This document shows, one piece after another, positions 63,031-63,371 of a DNA stretch of 64,000 nt (positions are counted from its first letter, which is position 1; each line of letters opens with the position of its first letter). Location of the stretch: assembly GCA_013289765.1 (NCBI GenBank), contig JABCZI010000001.1, positions 1 through 64,000 of the forward strand. The letters run 5' to 3'. The stretch is from Acidobacteriota bacterium (GTDB taxonomy: Bacteria; Acidobacteriota; Terriglobia; Terriglobales; Acidobacteriaceae). Below the pieces are notes generated by a model that worked only from the letters and a program-made list of their open reading frames with translations, searched no databases and was not told where the DNA came from. Both the position numbers and the translations under genes were made by a program.

Positions 63031-63065
63031 CAAGCAAAAGCCCCGGGGTCATCACTCCCGAGGCT
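63031..63065 (-). terminator. Intrinsic terminator of the tRNA-like transcript
   Basis: Minus strand AGCCTCGGG-AGTGATGAC-CCCGGGGCT then TTTGCTTG; 9-bp stem with one G-U. Confidence 0.75.
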
Positions 63066-63092
63066 ATGCACTAAACCAGTTGAGTACAACAC

Positions 63093-63160
63093 GGTCCGTC
63101 AAACCAGTTTTATGGTTACGCGATTCGATGCTGATGTCAATATTTATTTAATGAGTGGCC
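63093..63160 (-). ncRNA. 3' trailer complementary to the anticodon and variable arms of the tRNA-like gene
   Basis: GCCACTCATT (63159-63150) and TGGTTTGACGGACC (63106-63093) are exact complements of 63209-63200 and 63222-63209. Confidence 0.65.
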
Positions 63161-63163
63161 GTA

Positions 63164-63251
63164 CAGAAGGCGGCAGAGTCGAACTGCAATGGCTGATGAG
63201 CCACTCATTGGTTTGACGGACCAAGTCCAGTACCCACTGGCAACGCCTTCT
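63164..63251 (-). tRNA. Non-canonical tRNA-like gene, 8/4 acceptor/T-stem, long variable arm, anticodon GUC, G73, no encoded CCA
   Basis: AGAAGGCG-TTG-CCAG-TGGGTA-CTGG-AC-TTGGT-CCGTCAA-ACCAA-TGAG-TGGCT-CATC-AGCCA-TT-GCAG-TTCGACT-CTGC-CGCCTTCT-G; all five stems Watson-Crick. Confidence 0.82.
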
Positions 63252-63336
63252 AAAGCCTAGCCCGCCAACAGAATCCTACTCTGGAAATTGACCATAGCGA
63301 ACGATCTGGCGCAAGAAATCTGATTCAACATTCCGA

Positions 63337-63371
63337 ATTGGGAATTCCCAATCTTCATAAGTATGCTTATG
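63337..63371. promoter_or_regulatory. Two adjacent palindromes upstream of the terminal alcohol dehydrogenase
   Basis: ATTGGGAATTCCCAAT (63337-63352, perfect 16 bp) and CATAAG-TATG-CTTATG (63356-63371). Confidence 0.5.

Follow-up and report, generated by a model that had tools for sequence, protein, structure and literature searches.

An Acidobacteriota allo-tRNA and its covarying antisense partner: a candidate RNA-RNA toxin-antitoxin-like module

Downstream of an 8/4 allo-tRNA gene in an Acidobacteriota bacterium (family Acidobacteriaceae), we identified a predicted antisense RNA gene whose sequence changes in concert with the anticodon arm of the tRNA. Comparison of related loci strongly supports coevolved base pairing between the tRNA and the antisense. 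The pair lies in a window of 64,000 nucleotides (assembly GCA_013289765.1, contig JABCZI010000001.1, positions 1 to 64,000), and the same two-gene layout was found in about 85 related elements of Acidobacteriota. This locus is probably an RNA-RNA toxin-antitoxin-like module, in which the antisense would silence a mis-decoding serine tRNA. The initial annotation of the window had recognized the tRNA; it missed the covarying antisense gene downstream, a partial antisense in the 5' leader, a trailer complementary to the variable arm, and copies of the module carried by phages.

Results

The window tRNA belongs to the 8/4 allo-tRNA class

The 8/4 tRNA that the initial annotation had drawn on the minus strand was borne out base for base, and ARAGORN reported a tRNA-Asp(gtc) at exactly the same coordinates (63164-63251). 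Its stems consist of an 8-bp acceptor (AGAAGGCG/CGCCTTCT), a D-stem CCAG/CTGG, an anticodon stem TTGGT/ACCAA, a variable arm TGGCT/AGCCA and a 4-bp T-stem GCAG/CTGC. The anticodon loop is CCGTCAA (C33, anticodon GUC, A37); G73 is present and CCA is not encoded. When the tRNA was folded alone, the 8/4 cloverleaf was both the minimum free energy structure and the centroid (z = -2.9). The sole Rfam match was tRNA-Sec, at 44.5 bits; a tRNA-Sec identity was rejected on the basis of this score, which is below the gathering score of 47, and of the GUC rather than UCA anticodon.

The cloverleaf is maintained across relatives. Over 17 homologues, 96.8% of the cells are paired and 12 pairs present double changes, with a covariation score of 0.355 versus at most 0.133 for slid versions. 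It had been reasoned beforehand that homologues breaking the 8-bp acceptor would speak against such a molecule, and that compensatory substitutions should be sought in relatives. Such substitutions are present: five of the eight acceptor pairs change in a compensatory manner, so the acceptor is conserved as a structure rather than broken.

Acidobacteria, Clostridia and Proteobacteria are the groups in which 8/4 and 9/3 allo-tRNAs have been described (Mukai et al. 2017, as reviewed in PMC7609411). With its 8-bp acceptor, 4-bp T-stem, long variable arm, G73 and non-Ser anticodon, the window tRNA is a member of the known 8/4 class, and its proposed placement among these Acidobacteria tRNAs with Ser-like features was correct. 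GUC is among the most common 8/4 anticodons and GCG is also frequent; the Ser identity of these tRNAs comes from elements other than the anticodon, and an 8/4 allo-tRNA of Silvibacterium efficiently inserts Ser at CUC codons in E. coli (PMC7609411).

The tRNA is flanked by a predicted antisense gene

An inverted-repeat search revealed that the anticodon arm (63209-63222) possesses an exact 14-nt complement 102 nt downstream. By simple arithmetic, a match of this length between a 30-nt arm and 150 nt of downstream sequence is expected by chance about 2 times in 100,000. The same search found an exact 10-nt complement of positions 63200-63209 in the 3' trailer, which is conserved in relatives as GGTCACTCGAC. 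The parts are arranged alike in nearly all the GUACUGG-type elements, from an upstream palindrome through a -10 box, the leader, the tRNA, the trailer and a promoter to the guide and the terminator (Table 1).

Table 1. Features of the module in the window (all on the minus strand)
Feature	Position	Strand	Basis
Imperfect palindrome TTCCCAATTCGGAA, possible operator	63331..63344	(-)	Upstream alignment and window match; putative function
-10-like TAGGAT, putative tRNA promoter	63273..63278	(-)	Upstream alignment
5' leader, partial complement of the tRNA's own anticodon arm	63252..63269	(-)	Duplex energies
8/4 allo-tRNA, anticodon GUC, G73, long variable arm	63164..63251	(-)	Stems, ARAGORN, Rfam, homologue covariation, fold
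Antisense target GGTCCGTCAAACCA (5' strand of the anticodon stem, entire loop and some of the 3' strand)	63209..63222	(-)	Inverted repeat, 14/14
3' trailer GCCACTCATT, exact complement of the anticodon-stem/variable-arm junction	63150..63159	(-)	Inverted repeat, alignments
-35 TTGACA, antisense-RNA promoter	63135..63140	(-)	Alignments
-10 position AACCAT, antisense-RNA promoter, 17-nt spacer; weak in the window copy	63112..63117	(-)	Alignments
Guide TGGTTTGACGGACC, exact antisense to the anticodon arm	63093..63106	(-)	Inverted repeat and pairing computations
Predicted antisense small RNA, ~75 nt	63032..63106	(-)	Conserved promoter-guide-terminator layout and structure; putative transcript
Strong GC hairpin, intrinsic-terminator-like, GCCTCGGG..CCCCGGGGC then TTTTGCTT	63032..63064	(-)	Structure; conserved in relatives

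Two forms of the module were recognized. In type A elements, the TTGAC of the antisense -35 box is nearly invariant, and a conserved palindrome lies some 85 nt before the tRNA. Type B elements present an extended -10 box, and pairing of their guide takes in the 5' half of the D-arm as well. A TTCCC..GGGA element is found in type B as well, such that a palindromic element of the TTCCC..GGGAA type lies upstream of the tRNA promoter in both forms (63331-63344 and homologous positions). The -10-like box of the tRNA reads TAGAAT or TACAAT in the upstream alignment of relatives. In the window copy, pairing of the guide can extend into the D-arm through about position 63077. The antisense -10 box is TATCAT in most relatives versus AACCAT in the window; because this box is weak, a scan for consensus promoters and terminators failed to pick up this promoter in the window copy, where its assignment rests on the alignment of relatives. 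The xdhC gene of the window presents its own promoter-like site after the module terminator.

The leader is also partly matched to its own tRNA. The leader-arm duplex averages -19.7 kcal/mol for own pairs versus -14.6 kcal/mol for others (permutation sd 0.55), an effect that appeared with free-offset duplexes and was weak in a fixed-offset comparison; a control region had no such effect (-8.1 own versus -8.4 others). Through their complementarity, leader and trailer may slow the precursor in its folding or processing.

The tRNA and its antisense covary

We built a joint alignment of 34 members in which the D-stem 3' strand, the anticodon stem and the anticodon loop face the 5' part of the antisense. 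The resulting 20-pair helix is paired in 95.8% of cells, versus 29.8-42.7% when one partner is slid. Double changes were found in 14 of the 20 intermolecular pairs (107 doubly changed cells), and the intermolecular covariation score was 0.512, which none of 500 shuffles reached, against at most 0.111 for slid versions. Much of this signal is carried by columns 34-41 of the anticodon loop, which have no partner within the cloverleaf. G-U pairs exceed A-C mismatches by 65 to 17, as would be expected if the pairing is between RNAs rather than in DNA. When the downstream regions were aligned independently of the tRNA, 94.1% of cells at the variable guide positions paired with the cognate tRNA, versus 74.5% after shuffling (sd 1.5, maximum 80.6 over 2000 shuffles).

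Pairing is specific and anticodons switch at single sites

Cognate partners are predicted to bind far better than non-cognate ones. After accounting for the unfolding of both RNAs, the median net binding was -18.8 kcal/mol for cognate pairs versus -2.8 kcal/mol for non-cognate pairs; the members are related, however, and cognate ranks are not independent events because the preference is partly shared among close relatives. Among paralogues of one genome, pairing averaged -40.3 with the own partner versus -25.4 with the others. The exception is one tRNA (L046, genome G013) that fails to distinguish its own antisense from that of L080.

The best answer to relatedness is provided by anticodon switches at the same site. 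At the site of the window module, between the quinone oxidoreductase gene and xdhC, the anticodon is GUC in four orthologues and GCC in one (L087), for which guide pairing is -38.9 with its own guide versus -19.7 to -23.5 with the guides of the orthologues at this site. Similarly, the site downstream of rpoD presents GCC, GCG or GUC, each with a matching guide. The need to read a given codon therefore does not fix the anticodon, and we rejected a codon-specific role for the module. On the same grounds, the proposal that the window tRNA functions as a Ser-charging tRNA reading Asp codons was abandoned, since no particular codon appears to be served. Tandem modules with differing arms and matching guides were also observed within one intergenic region (L114:519-918 and L071:6080-6700).

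The anticodons of the family are mainly GUC, GCG, GCC, UUC and AUC, with GAG, GAC and GAU among the others. No Ser or stop anticodon was found in 76 elements, a few irregular loops of which were mis-parsed. Y33 and A37 are retained in the loops that were parsed better. U or C predominates at position 33 and AA or AC at positions 37-38, and the loops therefore seem suited to decoding. Since position 33 mixes U and C across the family, the C33 that had been singled out in the window tRNA is not a peculiarity of this copy. The discriminator base is G73 in 57 of 77 members and U73 in 17. Several of the U73 members (L106, L071, L050, L052 and others) have a purine immediately preceding the acceptor, where a ninth pair could form.

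Losses are asymmetric and other tRNAs lack an antisense

Three elements without an antisense have a damaged tRNA: L041 presents an acceptor mismatch, L073 a broken D-arm and L075 a truncation. Three others (L014, L109 and L140) also lack the antisense and are located at gaps or contig ends. No intact tRNA without an antisense was found among the elements examined, which include few informative cases. Conversely, at the site orthologous to the window's in a congener (L024, 1450-1600), the tRNA has been lost and the promoter, guide and terminator remain, and in L018 the T-arm is damaged next to an intact antisense. Although the numbers are small, with three clear antisense-less elements, this asymmetric loss would be the pattern expected if the free tRNA were harmful.

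No comparable antisense was detected at UCA tRNA-Sec, normal tRNA-Ser or UAU-type allo-tRNA genes, for which exact complements did not exceed 9 nt and were mostly of 5-8 nt. UAU-type 8/4 allo-tRNAs were observed in related genera (L061, L141-L146, L150 and L158), all without an antisense; they appear to constitute a separate class.

Modules are patchily distributed on chromosomes

A covariance model (R1) gave matches in 27 of 45 congeners, with up to four copies each. A pattern scan of GTDB genomes yielded 40 loci, all in Acidobacteriota MAGs, many of them named Candidatus Sulfotelmatobacter or Acidobacteriaceae. Together with the DNA search of congeners, these searches amounted to 64 distinct tRNA matches, and family- and class-level searches with models R1 and R2 extended the set to more genera and families. 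Because phylum-wide searches score few candidates per genome, statements of absence extend to class-level relatives only. No match on a plasmid was found. The host genome carries a second, divergent module with the same antisense layout (G000:C1:85364-85604; L065, L118), whose 94-nt tRNA has a GAG anticodon and which has orthologues in five other congeners. Chromosomal copies adjoin rpoD, groEL, gyrA, hemA, an NtrC-like regulator, lhr and other genes (neighbors were named from their sequences) and are inherited in place. The genes downstream of the module, and their strands, vary between loci. The host also possesses selA (L177) and selB (G000:C2:161819-163750); neither model searches nor the vicinity of these two genes revealed a UCA tRNA-Sec gene, which does not prove its absence from the genome.

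Some copies are carried by one phage family

One phage family carries the module in 14 copies, nine of them on distinct viral contigs and five in MAG prophages; this count adds a model search over 79 capsid-bearing IMG/VR loci to earlier matches. The first exact patterns searched in IMG/VR gave no match, and a pattern for the f7 subfamily matched four contigs, which have capsid, tail and other structural genes in common with the f7 loci of MAGs. One of the latter is a prophage of roughly 30 kb that encodes a terminase and a transglycosylase and is flanked by NAD synthase and MOSC genes. Each phage-borne copy has an antisense run of 13-26 nt, and the anticodons include GCG, GAC, CUC, GAG, CAG and GUC.

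Phage morons are independent units with their own promoter and terminator that sit between structural genes, on the opposite strand and at variable positions. The phage-borne modules match this description in promoter and terminator, strand and position: they are located at several intergenic positions of one structural cassette, on the strand opposite the structural genes wherever capsid or neighboring structural genes are visible. By their arrangement they are thus moron-like; they differ in being RNA-only and in occurring also at non-phage chromosomal sites. The 79 capsid loci of this phage family in IMG/VR (L204-L282) include some integrated in Acidobacteriota MAGs. We found no relatives of the family in the INPHARED set and no match of the module in named phage genomes.

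Discussion

Our favored role for the module combines toxin-antitoxin logic with phage-related selection. Based on established knowledge of antisense regulation and tRNA stability, we propose that SerRS charges the tRNA, which, if free, would insert Ser at common non-Ser codons: Asp codons for the window tRNA, and Arg, Gly, Glu, Leu, Ile or Val codons in relatives. The antisense RNA, produced from a sigma70-like promoter, would pair with the tRNA, melt its D and anticodon arms and stop decoding. Its supply could fall through loss of the module, phage shut-off of transcription or induction of the separate tRNA promoter; the longer-lived tRNA would then be released, and mistranslation would slow or kill the cell. 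The pair would be kept on chromosomes in the manner of RNA-RNA toxin-antitoxin systems, and prophages would carry it as a moron. Several observations count against this toxin-antitoxin reading: the antisense -10 box of the window is weak, 17 of 77 family members present U73 in place of the Ser-type G73, and chromosomal copies lie beside housekeeping genes rather than in mobile or defense contexts. Missense suppressors are, moreover, often tolerated.

In type I toxin-antitoxin systems such as hok/sok and tisB/istR, a small antisense RNA with its own promoter neutralizes a more stable RNA. The module has a predicted antisense with its own promoter as well, but the target is a tRNA rather than an mRNA and contains no ORF; assignment to type I, which implies a small-protein toxin, was rejected. 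Archaeal C/D box guide RNAs pair with the anticodon loops of tRNAs. Here too a small RNA faces an anticodon loop, but the module is bacterial, no C/D-type layout was noticed and the pairing spans about 20 nt including stems. Another parallel is type VIII, in which an RNA toxin is matched with an RNA antitoxin (SdsR/RyeA, CreT/CreA; PMC10767807, PMC12737573): in both cases the two partners are RNAs, genetically linked, with a base-pairing antitoxin. The module differs in that its putative toxin is a complete tRNA, its antitoxin pairs with the anticodon arm and its specificity diversifies by covariation. Its sequences present RNA partners encoded together, partner specificity by computed pairing and, from few cases, no intact toxin without antitoxin. 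The pair thus seems to work like type VIII, an assignment that would require toxicity and neutralization. As for allo-tRNAs, the module tRNA resembles the described class in its 8/4 arms, long variable arm, Ser-type elements, non-Ser anticodons and presence in soil Acidobacteria, whereas the review of this class mentions no antisense RNA, no leader or trailer complementarity and no phage module (PMC7609411). An association with toxin-antitoxin systems or transposons was hypothesized for the UAU-type allo-tRNA alone (PMC7609411), which lacks an antisense in our data. In the open-access literature searched, where the class is known through this review, we found no description of antisense RNAs paired with allo-tRNAs or of any tRNA gene that has an antisense partner of its own.

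Among other explanations, the module could be an anti-phage or inter-phage device, i.e., a moron or host module that poisons translation when an infecting phage shuts off transcription in the host, or one that keeps out related phages whose module differs. The 14 phage-borne copies, located at several positions of one structural cassette on the opposite strand with their own promoter and terminator, are consistent with this possibility, as is the rapid change of specificity. Most chromosomal copies lie outside prophages, however, and no defense neighbor was evident, so we regard it as plausible but somewhat doubtful; it is compatible with the toxin-antitoxin reading, of which it would be the ecological role. 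It is also conceivable, although rather unlikely, that the antisense adjusts the amount of a mistranslating tRNA that is beneficial and would be freed in stress to diversify the proteome, without any toxin logic. Indeed, the tRNA promoter is unlike the antisense promoter and has a conserved upstream palindrome, the loops look decoding-competent, and the allo-tRNA class is translation-competent in E. coli (PMC7609411). Such a regulated missense suppressor is difficult to reconcile with an anticodon that is unconserved even at one orthologous site, with the patchy presence of the module (27 of 45 congeners) and with its carriage by phages.

The remaining alternatives appear much less probable. 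That the antisense is the effector, regulating other targets with the tRNA as its sponge, would fit the persistence of the antisense in L024 after loss of the tRNA; we nevertheless find it very unlikely, as a sponge would not need the full cloverleaf, T-loop and acceptor that compensatory changes preserve, and the guides change with the tRNA and not with any fixed target. A DNA-level inverted repeat, such as a recombination or mobile-element feature without RNA function, is highly improbable given the 65 G-U pairs versus 17 A-C mismatches, the conservation of promoter and terminator at fixed spacing and the stability of orthologous positions. In its favor, the downstream segment reads as the tRNA in reverse complement with a promoter in between, so an origin by inverted duplication is possible. 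Finally, we see hardly any room for a tRNA-Sec variant or a T-box-like attenuator of the downstream gene. The near-threshold Rfam score and the selA and selB genes of the host are in line with the former, but the UCA anticodon is absent, the anticodon is unconserved and true selC genes have no antisense. A T-box riboswitch, that is, a tRNA-sensing leader of a conserved downstream gene, was rejected: downstream genes and strands differ between loci, and xdhC in the window has a promoter-like site of its own.

Taken together, it is about evenly balanced whether these elements form a new class of toxin-antitoxin or anti-phage modules made up of RNA alone, with a charged mis-decoding tRNA as toxin and an antisense to its anticodon arm as antitoxin, whose paired changes would diversify specificity, leaving modules mostly insulated from their paralogues as they move between chromosomes and prophages. 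If this is true, the tRNA is the poison and its anticodon arm the address of the antidote, a form of genetic conflict undescribed in the literature searched, and the family provides a natural set of more than 80 matched RNA pairs that could be used for building switchable tRNAs. Module tRNAs are easily overlooked because annotation pipelines may file them as tRNA-Asp, -Arg, -Gly or -Leu. Allo-tRNAs have posed the puzzle of bacteria keeping tRNAs that are expected to misread the code; a coevolving antisense partner would explain their retention, predict when they act and make their function testable.
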